A stretch of 28,638 nucleotides of DNA from Lachnospiraceae bacterium. Lineage in GTDB: Bacteria; Bacillota; Clostridia; Lachnospirales; Lachnospiraceae. The stretch is from positions 1 through 28,638 of the forward strand of contig JAGCCY010000283.1 in NCBI GenBank assembly GCA_017651385.1, read 5' to 3'. The position numbers and the translations under genes are program-made. This document shows positions 6,448-18,459 of this stretch, piece after piece. The notes under the pieces were generated by a model, which saw only the letters and a program-made list of their open reading frames with translations, was not told the DNA's origin and ran no database searches. The number at the start of each line of letters is the position of its first letter. The first letter of the stretch is position 1.

Positions 6448-6484
6448 AAAAAAAGTCCCTGACAGTATAACTACTGTCAGGGAC
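6448..6484 (-). terminator. T-box intrinsic terminator before trpE
   Basis: A perfect 13-bp stem (arms GTCCCTGACAGTA and TACTGTCAGGGAC) with a 4-base loop, followed on the minus strand by seven T residues. It lies between the T-box core and trpE, so it is the regulated terminator of the leader and not an operon end. Confidence 0.93.
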
Positions 6485-6727
6485 GAATATACAAATACAC
6501 TATCCGCGGTGCCACCCTTATTCATCACGACATGACTCGTGACCTTAGCGGGATACCAACATATCCCCGGCAACTAACGCATGCCTCTCGTCGCGGTATT
6601 TCCACCGCGCCCTCCGAAGTCCATTCACTCAAGCCTTTACTACCCGGATCTCACCATCCCGGACTCTCTTTACAGCAAGTGTCCCAAGCTACTCCTCTTC
6701 GTCAACGGTTTAGTACTTTATTTGGTT
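6448..6727 (-). ncRNA. T-box leader, tryptophan-specific, for trpEGDCFBA
   Basis: A 5' untranslated leader that binds tRNA-Trp and allows readthrough when the tRNA is uncharged. On the minus strand it contains the T-box core GGGTGGCACCGCGGAT (6502-6517), whose UGGC pairs the tRNA acceptor end. A Stem I arm contains GAATGGACTTC, whose TGG at 6621-6623 sits where the specifier codon is expected. A terminator hairpin follows. The 5' end is estimated from the promoter about 7 bases upstream. I did not fold the full Stem I; the specifier is assigned from the local context, which is identical in the second T-box of this window. Confidence 0.93.
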
Positions 6728-11463: not shown

Positions 11464-12690
11464 TTAAAAGAACGCTTCAAGCTTTGAAAGTATATCCTTG
11501 ACCGCGTCTTTGGGGACCGTATTATCGACAGTCATATCCGCGAACTGTTCATAATAGGGCTTACGCTCTCTAAAAAGCTCATTAAGGTCGCGTCCTTTTG
11601 ACAAAGGCCTGTCATCTGTCGGCAAAAGTGCCGCATCACGGCGGATCCATATGATGATGCCGTTTTGTTTAAGAAGGTTATAATTGTCTTTTCTTAATAC
11701 CGCGCCGCCACCGGTCGCGATTATCTTACCCGAAAGCTTTCCGAGATCTTTTATGACATCGGTCTCAATGTCGCGGAATACGCTTTCGCCGTCTTCGGTG
11801 ATTATGGCGGAAGGACTTCTGCCTTCACGCTCAGTGATCTTAATATCCGTATCAATGACCTCACGGTCCAGTCTTTCACCGAGAAGCTTCGCTATCGTTG
11901 TTTTACCGGATCCGGGCATTCCCACGAGCACAAGGTTCTGCATCCTGACCGAAAGGCAGTTGTAGATCTCATCTATCTTGGAGATCGGGATATCTTTTTT
12001 CTGAAACTGCTCCGAACTTTTAACGGCCTGGGCCACGAGCATGTAAAGTCCTCCGATCGCGGGAATACTCAGATCGTCGGCCTCAAGCACAAGTGCCGTT
12101 CTCGAAGGGTTGTATATTATATCGATCACTCCGCATAGTGCGGGAAAGAGTTTCAAAGAAAGAGCTGCCTTGCCGTTATCGGGATACATACCGAGCGGCG
12201 TTGTATTTACTATGACCCCGGCGTCCTTGTGAAGATCAAGATTGTCATAATTGTTCTCACCGCTTCTGCTTATGATGACCGGCTTTGCATTAAGCATTTC
12301 AAGTGCTGCAGTAACGGCTACGGAAGCACCGCCGCTTCCTAATACCAAAACCTTTTTGTTCCCGACCTCTATACCGGATTTTCTGACAAGCTCCATAAAT
12401 CCGTATACATCGGTATTGTCGCCGTAAAGCGTACCGTCGGGCCGCCTTACGATCGTGTTGACGCTTCCGACTTTCTTCGCTACATCGCTTAATTCATCCA
12501 TATAAGGCATAACGGTCTTTTTATAGGGAATCGTGACATTTATGCCGGTAAAATCGCCGTTTTTTATAAAATCGGCAACCTCGTCTTCTCCCTTTTCAAA
12601 AAGGGTGTACTCATAATCACCCAGCATACCGTGGATCTCAGGCGAAAAGCTGTGTGAAAGTTTTTTGCCAAGCAGGCCGCATTTTATCAT
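11464..12690 (-). CDS. Bifunctional shikimate dehydrogenase / shikimate kinase
   Basis: A 408-residue fusion of two consecutive-step shikimate pathway enzymes. Residues 1 to about 245 are AroE: SHSFSPEIH (shikimate binding), NVTIPYKK with the catalytic lysine at 57-58, GDNTDVYGF, the NADP-binding LGSGGAS and AIGGLYMLVAQA. Residues about 252-408 are AroK: P-loop GMPGSGKT (257-264), DTD, TGGGAVLR, and DDRPLSKGR in the lid. AroE makes shikimate and AroK phosphorylates it, so the product feeds AroA of the same operon. The reverse order of action to a random fusion makes substrate handover plausible. ATG 12690 is preceded by GGAG. Last gene of the aromatic operon. Confidence 0.95.
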   Translation of the reverse strand: MIKCGLLGKKLSHSFSPEIHGMLGDYEYTLFEKGEDEVADFIKNGDFTGINVTIPYKKTVMPYMDELSDVAKKVGSVNTIVRRPDGTLYGDNTDVYGFMELVRKSGIEVGNKKVLVLGSGGASVAVTAALEMLNAKPVIISRSGENNYDNLDLHKDAGVIVNTTPLGMYPDNGKAALSLKLFPALCGVIDIIYNPSRTALVLEADDLSIPAIGGLYMLVAQAVKSSEQFQKKDIPISKIDEIYNCLSVRMQNLVLVGMPGSGKTTIAKLLGERLDREVIDTDIKITEREGRSPSAIITEDGESVFRDIETDVIKDLGKLSGKIIATGGGAVLRKDNYNLLKQNGIIIWIRRDAALLPTDDRPLSKGRDLNELFRERKPYYEQFADMTVDNTVPKDAVKDILSKLEAFF

Positions 12691-12754: not shown

Positions 12755-13897
12755 CTATATGATCTCGCTGTAGCTTCCGAGATAATTGAAGCTTTCGCAG
12801 GCACCCGGAAGCTCCGCCATAAGCTGGATAAGCTTCGGTGAATATACCGGTGCATCAAGGTCAAAGTAAAACATAAACTCAAACTCTCTGTTCGGAAGCG
12901 GACGGCTTTCGAGCTTGTTTAGGTTGATACCTAACGCATAAAGTCTTGAAAGTATCTTGTAAAGCGCACCGGGCTCGTGAGAAAGTGTGAGCATGATACT
13001 GGTCCTGTTGGCTCCGGGATAGATCTCAAGCTGCTTTGCGATACATATAAAACGTGTATAGTTGTTGTCCTGGTTCTGAACACTGTCCTTTACACAGGAA
13101 AGTCCGTAATATTTCATGCACATGAGCGATGAAAGTGCGGCAACATCGTTCCTTTTGGATTCCGCTACCATCTTGGCGGCAACCGCGGTGTTCTCGCAGG
13201 GTATGATCTTAACCCCCTTAAGTGTCGACAGAAACTCGGAACACTGGCTTATGGCCTGCTCGTGCGAATATATCTCTTTTATATCCGAAAGCTTTGTGCC
13301 TTCGTTGGCTAAAAGATTATGCTCTATCTTAAGCCTTATGCTCCTCACTATACTGAAATGATGTTTTAACATAAGGTCGTAAACCGAGTTGACCGAACCG
13401 GCGGTACTGTTTTCCACAGGAATGACCCCGTATTTGCAAAGTCCCTTTTCAATAGCCGAGAATACAGCCTCAAAGCTTGCAAAATACATGATGTTCGGAT
13501 TTCTGAAAAGCTTATCGGTCGCAAGCTGCGAATTGGCACCCTCGACACCCTGGCACGCCACATCCGCACGCTCCGGGAAAAGCTTGTCCGTAGTCTCTAT
13601 CGCATTTTCGATACGCTCCGTAAGATCCGATCTTGCACCGTTCAATTTGTTCTGATAGCTTCTGCTGAGCTCTAAGATAATTGAAAAGAAAACGGGTGCA
13701 TAATCTATCATTTCATCCGATGACGCATTGAATACGGAAAGCATCTTCTCACGCTCTCTTTTTAAGTCAAGCGTCGGAATGTTGTTTTCTTTTTTATATG
13801 CGGCGATCTCTTTTGAAATGCCCATACGTTCAGTAAAAAGTCTTAAAAGTTCCTTGTCGATCGCGTCAATCTTCTCACGACACTCGGGAATGTTCAT
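12755..13897 (-). CDS. pheA: Bifunctional chorismate mutase / prephenate dehydratase
   Basis: Converts chorismate to prephenate and then to phenylpyruvate, on the way to phenylalanine. Three domains in 380 residues: AroQ-type chorismate mutase (about 1-90, REKIDAIDKELLRLF and ERMGISKEIAAYK); prephenate dehydratase (about 112-285) with GVEGANSQLA, PVENSTAGSVN and the catalytic NYTRF (TRF 281-283); and a C-terminal ACT domain (about 298-380). The ACT motif ESRP at residues 330-333 is the phenylalanine-binding signature, so feedback inhibition by Phe is expected. ATG 13897 follows a GGAGG nine bases upstream. Confidence 0.97.
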   Translation of the reverse strand: MNIPECREKIDAIDKELLRLFTERMGISKEIAAYKKENNIPTLDLKREREKMLSVFNASSDEMIDYAPVFFSIILELSRSYQNKLNGARSDLTERIENAIETTDKLFPERADVACQGVEGANSQLATDKLFRNPNIMYFASFEAVFSAIEKGLCKYGVIPVENSTAGSVNSVYDLMLKHHFSIVRSIRLKIEHNLLANEGTKLSDIKEIYSHEQAISQCSEFLSTLKGVKIIPCENTAVAAKMVAESKRNDVAALSSLMCMKYYGLSCVKDSVQNQDNNYTRFICIAKQLEIYPGANRTSIMLTLSHEPGALYKILSRLYALGINLNKLESRPLPNREFEFMFYFDLDAPVYSPKLIQLMAELPGACESFNYLGSYSEII

Positions 13898-13950: not shown

Positions 13951-15006
13951 CTAATTTCCAAGCATTGCATCATATACGGCTATCGCTGCCGCCGCCTCCA
14001 CGACCGGTACGGCTCTTACGGCCACACAGGGGTCATGGCGTCCCTTTATGATAAGTTCTGTCTCTTCTTTTGTCTGAAGATTTACACTGGTCTGAGGCTT
14101 GTATATCGAAGGGGTCGGCTTTACGGCCGCCTTAAACATAACAGGCATACCGTTTGTGATACCGCCGAGTATCCCGCCCGAATTGTTGGTCTTTGTCATG
14201 ACACGGCCGTCAACATAAGTGAACGGATCGTTGTTCTCGCTTCCGAACATCTTCGTGGCTTCAAAACCCGCGCCGAACTCTATTCCCTTGACCGCAGGTA
14301 TACCGAACACTATCTTTGAGATCCGGTTCTCCATACCGTCAAACATCGGATCGCCCAGCCCTGCGGGGAGTCCCGTGATCACACACTCGATGATACCGCC
14401 GACGGAATCGCCGTCTGCCTTTGCGCTTTCTATCAAAGCGACCATCTCCTCGCCCTTTTTATCGTTTACGACCGGAAATGCCTTATCGGATACTGGCTTA
14501 TCAAACCTGCCTTCATCGCATATATCTTTTATGGAATATACTCTTGCGAATATCTCGATCCCTTTTTCTTTAAGAAACTGCTTTATGATACCGCCCGCAA
14601 TACACATCGGCGCGGTAAGCCTTCCCGAAAAATGTCCGCCGCCCGCAAAGTCCTGAAAGCCGTTATATTTGACCTCTGCGGTATAATCCGCATGACCCGG
14701 ACGGGGTATTACCTTAAGTTCGGAATAATCCTTTGAACGGGTATCGGTATTTCTTATGATCGCGGTTATCGGGGTCCCGCATGTTATATCATCCTTAAGA
14801 CCCGATAAGAATTCAGGCTCGTCGGCTTCTTTTCTCGCCGTCGAAATACTGTCCCTGCCCGGAGCGCGTCTTTTCATAAAGGCATTAAGTTCGGCCATGT
14901 CGACCTTAAGCCCCGCGGGAACTCCCTCAAGAGTCATTCCTATCGCAGGGGAATGTGACTGTCCGAATATTGTAAGTCTTATATTCTCTCCGTAGCTTGA
15001 ACTCAT
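13951..15006 (-). CDS. aroC: Chorismate synthase
   Basis: FMN-dependent enzyme that turns EPSP into chorismate, the branch-point compound for Trp, Phe and Tyr. 351 residues. GQSHSPAIG near the N-terminus corresponds to the usual GESHG block, RPGHADYT is conserved, and [12 protein letters not shown] corresponds to the GGRSSARET block of enterics. RMGG-type and GVEFGAGF-like segments ([12 protein letters not shown]) follow, with a C-terminal [19 protein letters not shown] 15006 is preceded by AGGAGGG. It sits between aroA and pheA, in metabolic order. Confidence 0.97.
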
Positions 15007-15057: not shown

Positions 15058-16314
15058 CTAAAGCCTGTTAAAATCCAAAAAGAACGCGGGATACGATTTA
15101 GAAACACACTCCGCTCCGAGAATGGTTATATCGCTTACCGCTCCGCAGGCACAGACCGCTGCAGACATTGCGATGCGGTGATCCTTAAACGCATCGACCG
15201 TACCTCCCTTATAACAGCCCACGCCTTCTATCAAAAGGCCGTCATTTGTCTCTGTCGCTCTGCCGCCCAAAGAATTAATAAGTTTGGCGGTTGTGGCAAG
15301 CCTGTCGGATTCTTTGATCCTTAACCTTCCGGCATTGTATATTTTCGTGGTGCCTTCGGCCAGACCCGCAAGCACCGAAACCACAGGCACAAGATCGGGA
15401 ATGTTCGAAGCATCGAGTTCTATGGCTTTAAGTTCTTTTTTCTTTACCGTGACGGAATCATCGCCCACATAAACGTAAGCTCCGAACCTCTTCACTATAT
15501 CCAATATCGCTCTGTCGCCCTGCTTGGACGATATCGACAGTTTATCAAGAGTTATGCCCTTATCGGAAAGCGCTCCCATACATACAAAGAAAGCTGCGTT
15601 GGACCAGTCTCTTTCCACAACCTCACGGCCGTGCGACGAATAGACCTGGTCTCCCGGTATCCTATAGCAGTTTTCGGGATACTCATCAAATTCGATATCC
15701 ATGCTTTCAAGGACATCTTCCGTCATATCGATGTATGACTTTGACTCGATCTCGCCCGTGACCGTCAGCGTACTTTTTCCCGATAATATAGGAAGTGCAA
15801 ACAAAAGGCCCGAGACATACTGCGAAGAGATATTGCCGGCTATGTTAAAGTCACCGCTTTCAAGCCGGCCGGAAACATACAAAAGGTTATCCTCCTGCTT
15901 AAAACTCATACCGTGTTTTGGAAGCTCATCGGTAAGTATCGTGTTGGGCCTTTCCTTAAGACGGCCTTCCATGTTGAATACAGCATTTATGCCGAGTGCT
16001 CCCACAACGGGGATCAGAAATCTTAAAGTAGAACCGCTCTCACCGCAGTTAAGAGTTGTGACATCACCGTCAGCCAAAACCTTTCCGAAGTCCTTCGGAT
16101 CGACATTGATCTCACGGTGTACAACCTCGATCTTCGCTCCGAGAGCTTTTAAACATTCTATCGTGGCTTCTATATCTTTTGAGATACCGTCACATTCGAT
16201 AACGGCGGGCGCATCCGCAAGCGCCGCACAGATAAGCAGCCTGTGTGCATAGGATTTTGAAGCGGGAACCGTAATATGTCCGCTCCTTGAGCCGGGTTCT
16301 ACAGTATGATCCAT
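15058..16314 (-). CDS. aroA: 5-enolpyruvylshikimate-3-phosphate synthase
   Basis: Transfers enolpyruvyl from PEP to shikimate 3-phosphate. 418 residues, two-domain EPSP synthase. VPASKSYAHRLLICAALA carries the catalytic lysine at the N-terminus, CGESGSTLRFLIPV is the second conserved block, and RLRIKESDRLATTAK and DHRIAMSAAVCA are the later ones. In the glyphosate-site region it reads ESGSTLRFL, not the LGNAGTAMR of class I, so the class should be checked by alignment. ATG 16314 is preceded by AAAGGA and lies 13 bases after the tyrA stop. Confidence 0.96.
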   Translation of the reverse strand: MDHTVEPGSRSGHITVPASKSYAHRLLICAALADAPAVIECDGISKDIEATIECLKALGAKIEVVHREINVDPKDFGKVLADGDVTTLNCGESGSTLRFLIPVVGALGINAVFNMEGRLKERPNTILTDELPKHGMSFKQEDNLLYVSGRLESGDFNIAGNISSQYVSGLLFALPILSGKSTLTVTGEIESKSYIDMTEDVLESMDIEFDEYPENCYRIPGDQVYSSHGREVVERDWSNAAFFVCMGALSDKGITLDKLSISSKQGDRAILDIVKRFGAYVYVGDDSVTVKKKELKAIELDASNIPDLVPVVSVLAGLAEGTTKIYNAGRLRIKESDRLATTAKLINSLGGRATETNDGLLIEGVGCYKGGTVDAFKDHRIAMSAAVCACGAVSDITILGAECVSKSYPAFFLDFNRL

Positions 16315-16327
16315 ACATAGTCCTTTC

Positions 16328-17158
16328 TCAGCCGTCTATTTCGGCTTTGATCTCGCGGCCCTCCTTAAGAAGACGTCTCATTTCTTCCTTGTCGTCGTTT
16401 TCGAGGGCTTTTTTGTATTCGTTAAGACTGTCAATAAAGATGTTGAGTTCTTTTAACAGATCATCCTTATTGTCAAAGAACAGTTCCGTCCACATCTCGG
16501 GATTGAGCCATGCCACACGTGTCATATCCTTGTAGCTGCCCGCGGAAAAGCCTTTATGCGACCTTACCGTGGGGCTTTTTACATATGCGTTCGACACTAT
16601 ATGCGCAAGCTGTGATGTGTACGCTATCATCATATCATGTTCTTCGGCAGTAGTAACGGTAAATCGGGAAAAACCTGCAGGTTCGAGCAGTTTTTTTATG
16701 TTATCGAGAAGAACGATATCATCGTTCCTTGGCGGCACTATTACCATTGGCGCCACTTTATAAAGGTTTTCTTTTGCATATTTAAAGCCCGATTACTGGG
16801 TTCCGGCCATCGGATGCCCGCCCACATATGTAAAACCGTAACGTTTGGCTGTTTCCATACCCTTGTCTACTATAACTTTCTTGGTACCGCAGCAATCGAT
16901 GACTATGGGCTTCTTTCCTATAAAAGGACCGTTCTTTTCCATGTAATCAAGGGCAGCGCCCGGATATGTACATATAAACACAAGGTCGCAGTTTTTTATG
17001 TTTTCCGTAGTAAGCTCACCCGAAACGGCACCGCTCAGCATTGCAAAATCCATTACGCTCTTATCGATATCCTTGGCAAGCACCGTTTCGCCCGCTTTTG
17101 AATATGCTTTCGCAAAAGAACCGCCTATAAGGCCGAGTCCCACTATTCCTACCGTCAT
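16328..17158 (-). pseudogene. tyrA: Prephenate dehydrogenase interrupted by an in-frame stop
   Basis: Encodes a prephenate dehydrogenase (prephenate to 4-hydroxyphenylpyruvate, towards tyrosine) of about 276 codons, split by TAA at 16793-16795. The N-terminal part (121 residues, 16793-17158) has the NAD-binding GIVGLGLIGGSFAKA and the substrate motif GGHPMAGTQ. Directly after the stop, in the same frame, the protein continues SGFKYAKENLYKVAPMVIVPP and runs to a normal C-terminus at 16328. Nothing is missing and no frameshift is needed; one base would restore the gene. The internal GTG at 16756 has no Shine-Dalgarno, so independent translation of the second part looks unlikely. The start overlaps the DAHP synthase stop by one base, with GGGAGG upstream. 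It may be a recent null mutation, a sequencing error or a readthrough site. Confidence 0.88.
16793..16795 (-). other. In-frame TAA within tyrA
   Basis: The codon follows MAGTQ and precedes SGFKYAKENL. In related clostridial proteins I expect an aromatic or basic residue here. If it was Tyr (TAT or TAC), the change is a single third-base substitution. TAA is an ordinary stop elsewhere in this window, for example at the ends of trpB and the DAHP synthase gene, so a reassigned code is ruled out. Confidence 0.85.
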
Positions 17159-18156
17159 TACAAAACCTCCCTGACAGCTTTGATCTTCTTAACAAGCTCC
17201 GCATACTCTTCGGGACGTAAACTCTGTGCTCCGTCGCAAAGCGCGTGAGGCGGATCGTTATGAACCTCGATTATGAGTCCGTCGGCTCCGGCTGCGGTTG
17301 CGGCCATTGCCATAGGAGGCACCATTCTTGCGATACCCGTTGCGTGGCTCGGATCCACTATCACGGGAAGATGCGAAAGTTCGTGAAGCATCGGGACTGC
17401 CGCAAGATCAAGAGTATTTCTTAAGTAATCGCTGTATGTTCTTATACCTCTTTCGCAGAGGTTTATATTCTCGTTGCCGCTTGCCATGATGTATTCGGCA
17501 CTCATTAAAAGTTCTTTTAACGTATTGGCAAGACCGCGCTTTAATAAAATGGGTTTGCCTGTCTGGCCGAGTTCTTTAAGAAGGTCAAAATTCTGCATGT
17601 TTCTCGCGCCGACCTGAAGCACATCGATATCTTCAAAAAGAGGAAGATCGTCTATACTCATTATCTCGGTCACGATCGGAAGACCGGTTTCTTTTCTTGC
17701 GATCTTCAAAAGTTCGATACCCTCACCCTTAAGACCCTGGAAATCGTAAGGTGAAGTACGGGGTTTGAATGCGCCGCCCCTTAACAGATTTGCTCCGGCT
17801 GCCTTGACATCCTTCGCTACCGATACTATCTGGTCCTCGTTTTCAACGGAACAGGGACCTGCGATCAGCACGAAGTTGCCGCCGCCGACCTTGACGTCTC
17901 CTATATTTACTACCGTGTCGTCCGGATGAAACTTTCTGTTACAGCACTTAAACGTCTCGGATACACGCTTTACCGAATCCACGATATCGAGGCTGTCTAT
18001 AAGCTCCATATCCACCTTTGCGGTGTCGCCGATAAGACCGAGCACCGTCTGGTATTCACCTTCGGAAATATGTACGCCGAGGCCCATGCCCTTAAGCCAT
18101 TCTATGAGTCTGTCCTTTTTCTCCTGTCCCACATTGGGTTTTAATACAACTATCAT
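17158..18156 (-). CDS. aroF: DAHP synthase with N-terminal regulatory domain
   Basis: 3-deoxy-7-phosphoheptulonate synthase, first step of the shikimate pathway (PEP plus erythrose 4-phosphate). 332 residues, type I-beta. An N-terminal ferredoxin-like domain (about 1-70) resembles the Thermotoga enzyme, where it mediates Tyr/Phe inhibition. The catalytic barrel follows with IAGPCSVE (residues 98-105), [17 protein letters not shown] (125-141), [25 protein letters not shown] and [20 protein letters not shown] 18156 is preceded by AGGAGGAG. It is the first gene of the aromatic operon, directly after the attenuator, so both the enzyme and its transcription appear tied to Tyr/Phe level. Confidence 0.96.
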
Positions 18157-18170
18157 GGTATCTCCTCCTG

Positions 18171-18211
18171 AAAAAGAAAAGCGACATCAGATCCGGTTAA
18201 TCTGTGTCGCT
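18171..18211 (-). terminator. Attenuator terminator before the DAHP synthase gene
   Basis: On the minus strand AGCGACA-CAGAT pairs with ATCTG-A-TGTCGCT (12 bp, one bulged A) around a 7-base loop, followed by TTTTCTTTTT. It lies between the leader peptide and the first structural gene, so termination here would switch off the operon. Its 5' arm is also one strand of the antiterminator. Confidence 0.88.
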
Positions 18212-18255
18212 TCACGAATTCGTATCTTTCACAATTCTCACAACGCAAACTAACC

Positions 18256-18321
18256 TTACTCAGAGTCGGTAAAGTAAAAGTAAAAGTAATAATAGTTTGC
18301 TGCAAAAAATGTGTTCTTCAT
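18256..18321 (-). CDS. Tyr/Phe-rich attenuation leader peptide
   Basis: A 21-codon ORF beginning MKNTFF, continuing NYYYFYFYF at residues 9-17 and ending TDSE before TAA. It has five Tyr and five Phe codons and no Trp codon. The ATG has AAAGGAAG about five bases upstream, as in a translated gene, and the ORF sits about 60 bases after a strong promoter. It resembles the pheA and pheST leader peptides of enterics in design, but includes tyrosine. The product is probably not functional as a protein; its translation rate is the signal for the downstream DAHP synthase, tyrA, aroA, aroC, pheA and aroE/aroK genes. Confidence 0.9.
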   Translation of the reverse strand: MKNTFFAANYYYFYFYFTDSE

Positions 18322-18390
18322 GTTTCTTCCTTTGGGTTTATCGCCCTTAAACTTAATTCTTACATTCAAGATATTTCTTAAGCTGAAAGA

Positions 18391-18420
18391 ATAATAACAC
18401 CGTGAAATCGGGTTTGTCAA
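18391..18420 (-). promoter_or_regulatory. Promoter of the aromatic operon
   Basis: Minus-strand TTGACA (18415-18420) and TATTAT (18391-18396) with an 18-base spacer. Transcription would start near 18384, about 60 bases before the leader peptide start. Confidence 0.78.
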
Positions 18421-18436
18421 CAAAAATATTTTAGCG

Positions 18437-18459
18437 CTTTAAACTGTAATGGTTTAAAG
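18437..18459. repeat. Palindrome upstream of the aromatic promoter
   Basis: CTTTAAAC and GTTTAAAG, perfect complements, flank a 7-base spacer. The site begins 16 bases upstream of the -35 element. It could bind a regulator, or be a weak terminator for birA, whose stop lies 35 bases away; no T-run follows it directly on the minus strand. Confidence 0.5.

Follow-up and report, generated by a model that had tools for sequence, protein, structure and literature searches.

A candidate ribosome-mediated Tyr/Phe attenuator upstream of the aroF operon of a Lachnospiraceae bacterium, and related leaders in Clostridia

A short ORF rich in Tyr and Phe codons lies between birA and aroF on the minus strand of a Lachnospiraceae contig (JAGCCY010000283.1; the window, which is the whole stretch of DNA analysed, comprises 28,638 nucleotides), and raises the question of how the aromatic amino acid genes downstream are regulated. 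In the usual account the Firmicutes control their amino acid genes by T-boxes, and translated attenuators belong to Proteobacteria and Actinobacteria. The passages of PMC1262725 and PMC2965389 that touch on the subject are in line with this account. The leader described here very probably constitutes a ribosome-mediated transcription attenuator of aroF-tyrA-aroA-aroC-pheA-aroEK, which should be opened when charged tRNA-Tyr or tRNA-Phe is scarce. The features of the region are collected in Table 1.

Table 1. Predicted elements of the aroF leader and genes of the downstream operon, in window coordinates.
Feature	Position	Strand	Remarks
Candidate attenuator region	18420 to 18171	minus	between birA and aroF
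Predicted sigma-70 promoter	18391..18420	minus	TTGACA 18420-18415, 18-nt spacer, TG-extended TATTAT 18396-18391
Shine-Dalgarno-like AAAGGAAG of leader ORF	18326..18333	minus	read from sequence
Leader ORF MKNTFFAANYYYFYFYFTDSE	18256..18321	minus	21 codons: 5 Tyr, 5 Phe, 0 Trp
Strand 1	18284..18313	minus	within leader ORF, 3' end at Tyr codons; fold, covariation
Strand 2	18230..18261	minus	1:2 helix uses 18261-18230, 2:3 helix uses 18255-18240; fold, covariation
Strand 3	18195..18211	minus	antiterminator with strand 2, terminator with strand 4; fold, covariation
Strand 4 and U-rich tract	18171..18193	minus	strand 4 18193-18180, U-rich 18179-18171; predicted intrinsic terminator
Predicted helix 1:2	18313-18284 with 18261-18230	minus
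Predicted helix 2:3	18255-18240 with 18210-18195	minus
Predicted helix 3:4	18211-18199 with 18193-18180	minus	followed by U-rich tract
aroF, DAHP synthase	17158..18156	minus	NF006421 and TIGR01361 over cut-off; Shine-Dalgarno AGGAGGAG 18169-18162
tyrA, prephenate dehydrogenase	16328..17158	minus	both pieces match prephenate dehydrogenase models, under cut-off
aroA, EPSP synthase	15058..16314	minus	TIGR01356 over cut-off
aroC, chorismate synthase	13951..15006	minus	TIGR00033 over cut-off
pheA, chorismate mutase-prephenate dehydratase	12755..13897	minus	NF008865 211 bits, just under cut-off 219; PF00800 over cut-off
aroE-aroK fusion, shikimate dehydrogenase and kinase	11464..12690	minus	best matches under cut-offs

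The promoter of aroF was called strong in a preliminary description of this DNA, and it does match the consensus at 11 of 12 positions and has an extended -10 region, but the promoter scan by itself is not significant, as shuffles of the region yield 2.3 sites on average and the region itself one. The leader ORF stands as described there, preceded by a Shine-Dalgarno-like sequence and with Tyr or Phe at 10 of its 21 codons. The three helices of that description are likewise recovered as predicted folds, with -23.9 kcal/mol for 1:2 (equalled by 2 of 200 shuffles), -21.3 kcal/mol for 2:3 and -16.5 kcal/mol for the 3:4 intrinsic terminator (no shuffle of 200 as good in either case), and the full leader folds with a z of -3.4, again unmatched in 200 shuffles. 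The helices are mutually exclusive because they share strands. Strand 2 had been placed one base after the leader stop; it does abut the stop, but its first base in the 2:3 helix is the one directly following (18255), and in the 1:2 helix the stop itself is part of it. Scanning the leader with Rfam 15 gave no matching family, and a looser scan with E up to 10 gave four hits, each short of its gathering score and none to an amino acid leader.

The elements by which an attenuator is recognized are all predicted here, namely an ORF with a ribosome binding site, codons for the end products, exclusive helices and a terminator before the first structural gene. With Tyr and Phe both plentiful, the ribosome would reach the stop codon and cover strand 2, the 3:4 helix would form and transcription should end. 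When Tyr or Phe is short the ribosome would halt in the YYYFYFYF run and cover strand 1; with the ribosome stalled there the 2:3 helix could form before strand 4 is made, and RNA polymerase would read into aroF. If the leader is not translated, 1:2 should form and 3:4 terminate.

Judged from gene spacing, the genes from aroF to aroEK are inferred to form a single transcript. The tyrA gene of the window is interrupted by one in-frame TAA at 16795-16793 (codon 122), a position that is intact in the four relatives compared, and which could be an assembly base-call error or a real nonsense allele; a frameshift was considered and rejected, as the interruption is one in-frame TAA. At the gathering score the window has a single T-box (6476-6714, minus strand, 95.7 bits), which precedes the trp genes, with the specifier context GAAUGGAC read by eye as UGG, indicating that Trp would be sensed by a T-box and Tyr and Phe by the translated leader.

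The preliminary description proposed that a conserved Tyr/Phe-rich ORF be sought upstream of aroF in relatives. The loci were the 80 best matches of an AroF protein search of the genome collection together with same-genus matches (seven close AroF matches in 18 genomes, the window's own included); those with at least 300 nt upstream number 85, where L002 duplicates L001, L051 and L070 lack upstream DNA and L009 to L012 lack an AroF match. A strict rule (10 to 45 codons, a Shine-Dalgarno word, and at least five aromatic codons in eight) finds a leader ORF in 70 of these 85 loci, the window's included and among the matches listed, compared to 21 of 4250 dinucleotide shuffles. The rule fired six times in 774 control regions upstream of other ORFs, but all six are ORFs that start 63 to 90 nt before aroF, so that it was catching the aroF leader itself. 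A terminator-like hairpin is located 3' of the leader ORF in 68 of the 70 leader loci among the matches listed. The rule failed in 15 of the 85 loci, also among the matches listed, and seven of these hold an aromatic-rich ORF by looser rules (L015, L018, L021, L028, L037, L076, L089). In L006, L007, L008 and L019 aroF is immediately preceded by a promoter-like site, and the loose-rule ORF in L008 looks like chance, while L042, L047, L056 and L085 have no aromatic-rich leader ORF by the strict or the loose rule. The named relatives include many MAGs from gut and rumen.

Within the leaders the aromatic triplets follow the reading frame. In the 70 leaders, Tyr/Phe triplets account for 35% of the in-frame positions, compared to 10% and 13% for the two other frames. 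Both amino acids are encoded in all 70 leaders, with at least two codons of each in 65, and any Trp codon is present in only seven; Trp sensing by the aroF leader was considered and rejected, with 9 Trp codons against 570 for Tyr or Phe. In the five codons that end at the final aromatic one, 54, 60, 67, 64 and 68 of 68 leaders have an aromatic codon, where the last position is aromatic by definition. At the third codon from the end TTT (23), TAT (22) and TAC (21) are among the commonest, with the first base fixed, the second A or T and the third C or T, and Tyr and Phe swap freely at the same codon position across leaders. These patterns indicate that the leader codons are selected as codons.

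Covariation of the 2:3 and 3:4 helices had been suggested as a further test. When the whole leader was aligned over the 68 loci that have both ORF and terminator, the spacer aligned poorly, and covariation was therefore counted on two hand-picked subsets, A1 with 29 of the 68 loci (one structural type) and A2 with 57, which omits 11 divergent or near-identical rows (L003, L043, L052, L058, L071, L072, L079, L083, L084, L087, L092). The terminator bears out the expectation, as all nine of its pairs vary in A1, 93.5% of the cells stay paired and both sides change in six of the nine pairs. In A2 the inner 1:2 and the 3:4 helices have double changes in 15 of 19 pairs, with 99 cells compared to 33.7 in shuffles. 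The covariation is weakest for the 2:3 helix, and here the outcome is divided. In A1 85.7% of its cells are paired with both-side changes in 7 of 16 pairs, and in A2 there are 28 double-change cells compared to 15.6 in shuffles, but the number of pair types is not above shuffles (reached by 225 of 500 in A1 and 152 of 500 in A2), 55 of 500 shuffles have at least as many double-change pairs as the nine in A2, and many sequences leave two of the helix positions unpaired. An alignment-free swap test on all 68 loci, where each strand was paired with its own partner or with the partners from all other loci, gave -24.3 kcal/mol for cognate and -18.9 for swapped 1:2, -17.9 and -13.7 for 2:3, and -21.0 and -10.8 for 3:4. 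Pairings outside the model served as controls, with -9.0 and -8.9 for 1:3 (p 0.61) and -10.9 and -10.4 for 2:4 (p 0.06). Own partners are thus preferred for the helices of the model, 2:3 included, and little or not at all for off-model pairings.

The effect of the ribosome was predicted by folding with the RNA masked to 14 nt past the first base of the A-site codon and with strand 4 not yet made. The mean probability that strand 3 is paired upstream is 0.72 with the ribosome in the aromatic run, 0.36 with the ribosome at the stop and 0.44 without translation, whereas shuffled upstream RNA gives 0.43, 0.34 and 0.46, respectively. The value in the run exceeds that at the stop in 59 of 68 loci and that of the untranslated leader in 60 of 68, and the window has 0.66, 0.23 and 0.38 for run, stop and no translation. 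In the window leader strand 2 is freed to the same extent (0.64 to 0.66) by a ribosome at any codon from the start up to the run, and only the last codons, the stop and the untranslated state differ, so the folding model indicates where strand 2 is freed and not that the aromatic codons are singled out. The equilibrium probability of the terminator with a stalled ribosome still has means of 0.70 to 0.83 (it falls from 0.89 to about 0.70), and the switch must therefore be kinetic, acting during transcription as in trp.

A covariance model of the leader (R1) was searched in the class, order and phylum with Infernal's stricter filters, and has matches, the window's own counted, in 25 of 393 genomes of the class, 2 of 295 of the order and 5 of 398 of the phylum. 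R1 misses divergent leaders, and frequencies were therefore taken from the ORF scan. The 24 other matches in the class are located at aroF (20), pheA (2), tyrA (1) and ilvB (1), which led to a test of codon content against the genes of the operon. Downstream aromatic genes were sought by tblastn with the window proteins, a set that includes no aroB or aroQ. Leaders of aroF operons that include tyrA have a mean Tyr share of 0.50 (n=72), and those of operons in which tyrA was not detected one of 0.23 (n=10; p=2e-6); in 8 of the latter 10 the gene after aroF was scanned and proved to be aroB. The class-wide subset has 0.39 with tyrA (n=9) and 0.25 without (n=8; p=0.008); the loci are related and not independent, so both p-values are descriptive. 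The comparison omits the loci from the window's genus, as well as L048, L065 and L153, where the genes downstream could not be made out. The leader of L282, where aroF is paired with pheA and tyrA is absent, has seven Phe codons and at most one for Tyr, and mixed leaders are found where pheA heads an operon with common-pathway or tyrA genes (L279, L280, L281) or where tyrA is at the head (L283).

The pheA survey covered 70 upstream regions, 30 returned and 40 hand-picked, including all seven of genus g61 among the matches listed. Among these 70 the rule with a Shine-Dalgarno word is met by L211, L228 and L271, and the rule without it adds L216, L220, L230, L232, L264, L269 and five of the seven g61 regions, while the leaders of g61 L236 and L237 were read from the sequence. 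Firings other than L228, L269, L271 and g61 look like chance or belong with another gene. The g61 pheA genes (L234 to L240) have a leader in 7 of 7 cases, with 6 to 9 Phe codons, no Tyr and, in three, one Trp, and no other window-type aromatic gene was detected in the about 3.3 kb fetched downstream. The aroF leaders of the same genus mix Tyr and Phe (L107, L108, L110, L111, L119, L171; L108 and L110 by eye), and genomes G136, G224 and G240 have both a Phe-only pheA leader and a mixed aroF leader. No Shine-Dalgarno word precedes the g61 pheA leaders, which begin 6 or 7 nt downstream of TATAAT, and these regulatory ORFs are therefore predicted to be leaderless, which is probable. Strand 3 of these leaders is predicted to be paired upstream at 0.07 to 0.30 with the ribosome at the stop, 0.48 to 0.93 at a Phe stall and 0.47 to 0.93 untranslated; unlike in the aroF leaders the untranslated state is also paired, and no default termination is predicted there. 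At L113 (about 1479-1656) R1 matched a leader upstream of an acetolactate synthase gene. Its translation, made by eye, is MFLNFVISLLLVIIIINIIDNNDLCCADYKG, and its AUU AUU AUU is the UAU UAU run in another reading frame.

The codon content of the leader thus follows the genes downstream, and this weighs against the possibility that attenuation is real but answers to Phe only, the Tyr codons being kept because UAU and UAC are needed for the helix between strands 1 and 2. The run UAUUACUUU does pair with AAAGUAAUA of strand 2 in many loci, and the Phe-Tyr-Phe leader of aroF in Corynebacterium glutamicum is reported, in the part of PMC11802643 that deals with it, to respond to Phe and not to Tyr. 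Tyr and Phe are nevertheless interchangeable at the same codon, and the Tyr share follows tyrA down to zero in the single-gene pheA leaders (7 of 7), which makes a Phe-only sensor unlikely.

A palindrome near TAGCGCTTTAAAGCGCTA is located upstream of aroF in 13 of the 85 loci with up to four mismatches, where 0.0 are expected from shuffles. It is found with and without a leader (L003, L005, L006, L007, L008, L019, L026, L044, L054, L055, L061, L068), by eye mostly between the -35 and -10 boxes, and resembles the operator of a repressor. In the window, a degenerate copy with four mismatches lies at 18432-18449, upstream of the -35 box. Sites of the HisR/TrpR family, as given in a passage of PMC9413887, loosely resemble the palindrome; a regulon was considered and rejected, as the window's genome has no copy with three or fewer mismatches. 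L006-L008, three of the seven aroF genes from the window's genus, are without the attenuator and have only an operator-type promoter right before the start codon, so that one genus holds two regulatory solutions at aroF, an attenuator and an operator-type promoter. The main control could thus lie with a repressor at this operator, the terminator being a weak constitutive brake, and the frequency of the palindrome, its presence without a leader in L006-L008 and L019 and the degenerate copy in the window would fit. It is, however, absent at the threshold in 72 of 85 loci while the leader is present in 70 of 85, and a constitutive terminator needs neither covarying helices nor selected codons. 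We regard repression as the main control as quite improbable, although a repressor layer and an attenuator layer may coexist.

Drug-sensing uORFs with terminators are known in Firmicutes. One has been proposed at hflX in a section of PMC8632094, and a leader that reports slow translation in general, e.g. by antibiotics, via its nascent peptide and not Tyr/Phe charging would agree with the folding model, where a ribosome stalled anywhere before the run acts alike. Such a stall sensor is very improbable, as the leaders have no fixed peptide sequence with Tyr and Phe being interchangeable, the element sits at amino acid genes in the class-wide R1 matches, and its codons change with the target gene.

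This type of AroF is present in 282 of 393 Clostridia genomes. A class-wide sample of 70 aroF loci was not random but consisted of the 30 best-scoring and 40 hand-picked across families (L122 and L137 have less than 300 nt upstream), and 19 of the 70 have an ORF by the rule, or 18 after dropping L162, where the ORF is inside aroF. The background is 20 of 1400 shuffles and 1 of 70 on the reverse strand. T-boxes are located on the aroF strand in 10 of the 70, nine at the gathering score and one just below; the looser threshold was applied to 40 of the 70, and the T-box of L131 is on the opposite strand. Leader and T-box occur together in none of the 70 loci, and no T-box was found in the 10 loci without a strict leader that were scanned among the first 85. 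The preliminary description took the leader as an exception in Firmicutes that mostly use T-boxes, which does not apply at aroF with 18 leaders and 10 T-boxes in the sampled loci. That the leader itself is a T-box or some other riboswitch with a ligand, and holds an ORF by coincidence, is hardly credible: T-boxes do occur upstream of aroF in these Clostridia and before the trp genes of the window, but no T-box (RF00230) or riboswitch match was found in the leader even at E up to 10, and the ORF has in-frame periodicity.

Of 19 other genomes from the same family in the class sample, only 2 have a type I-beta AroF, the close AroF relatives among the matches listed bear many taxon labels, and the R1-type leader is rare in the window's order. 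From this patchy occurrence the aro operon and its leader may have moved horizontally.

Attenuation mediated by the ribosome, as the preliminary description read the leader, is supported by the conserved ORF, the covarying helices, the preference for native over swapped partners and the codons that follow the genes; ORF, codons, conservation, covariation and gene order are observed directly in the sequences. The pheL-pheA and trpL attenuators of enteric bacteria have the four-strand logic with the regulatory codons in or beside strand 1. Each of these gammaproteobacterial leaders reads one amino acid, whereas the window leader has codons for both Tyr and Phe; pheL is also mentioned in a passage of PMC11802643.

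The preliminary description knew of no described example of such a leader, but passages in several papers provide precedents. Stav et al. 2019 (PMC6429828, Fig. 6b) present two candidate uORFs encoding Phe and Tyr at shikimate genes, and the genomes named there include Clostridium novyi. By description, which is the level of the comparison, these are like the window leader short Phe/Tyr ORFs at shikimate genes, and the concluding section, the legend and the passages concerned contain no four-strand model, survey or codon-to-target rule. If they are from C. novyi, they may well be relatives of the aroF leader family of Clostridia. The uORFC-13-1 motif is described in a passage of PMC8632094 as a uORF upstream of aroF in Acholeplasma and environmental sequences (24 sequences). 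As described there, and not by consensus, it shares with the window leader the uORF and terminator upstream of aroF, but the passage names at least one Phe codon and not a Tyr/Phe run, and only Acholeplasma and environmental sequences. For the aroR-aroF leader of C. glutamicum attenuation has been reported (work of Neshat et al. 2014, as covered in parts of PMC11802643, PMC4046766 and PMC3890552). It resembles the window leader in having a leader peptide with Phe and Tyr codons before DAHP synthase; it differs in the Phe-Tyr-Phe sequence and the response to Phe without one to Tyr (PMC11802643, same part), belongs to another phylum, and is likened by design only. Leader-peptide attenuators in Firmicutes have been proposed, in the sections concerned, for hisS/hisZ in bacilli (PMC2965389) and for ilv-leu in Staphylococcus aureus (PMC5794164). 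These also have a translated leader, a terminator and codons for the product amino acid, but concern other amino acids and genes. In the literature searched, mostly open-access and without supplements, no Tyr/Phe aroF attenuator in Clostridia was found beyond the Stav 2019 candidates, and neither a four-strand model nor the distribution in Clostridia nor a connection of leader codons with operon content was met with. The mechanism is classical and candidates of this sort are in print; what is described here is a large family without an Rfam match.

A broader view is put forward tentatively, at somewhat less than even confidence. Much of the aromatic control in Clostridia may be exerted by a family of translated attenuators that occur class-wide, evolve fast and have their mixture of codons adjusted to the downstream genes, with Tyr and Phe where both are made, mainly Phe where tyrA is lacking, and Phe only on single-gene pheA, there probably on leaderless transcripts. 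The Tyr:Phe ratio would then constitute a weighted sensor of the two products, and at ilvB (L113) this A/U-rich strand, shifted to another reading frame, may even provide a sensor for Ile, Leu and Val. At the gene for the entry step of aromatic biosynthesis, the sampled Clostridia have translated leaders at least as often as T-boxes, and the natural codon swaps, in three cases within a single genome, offer a direct test of whether the specificity of an operon, and the proportions in which it senses, are determined by the codons of its leader.
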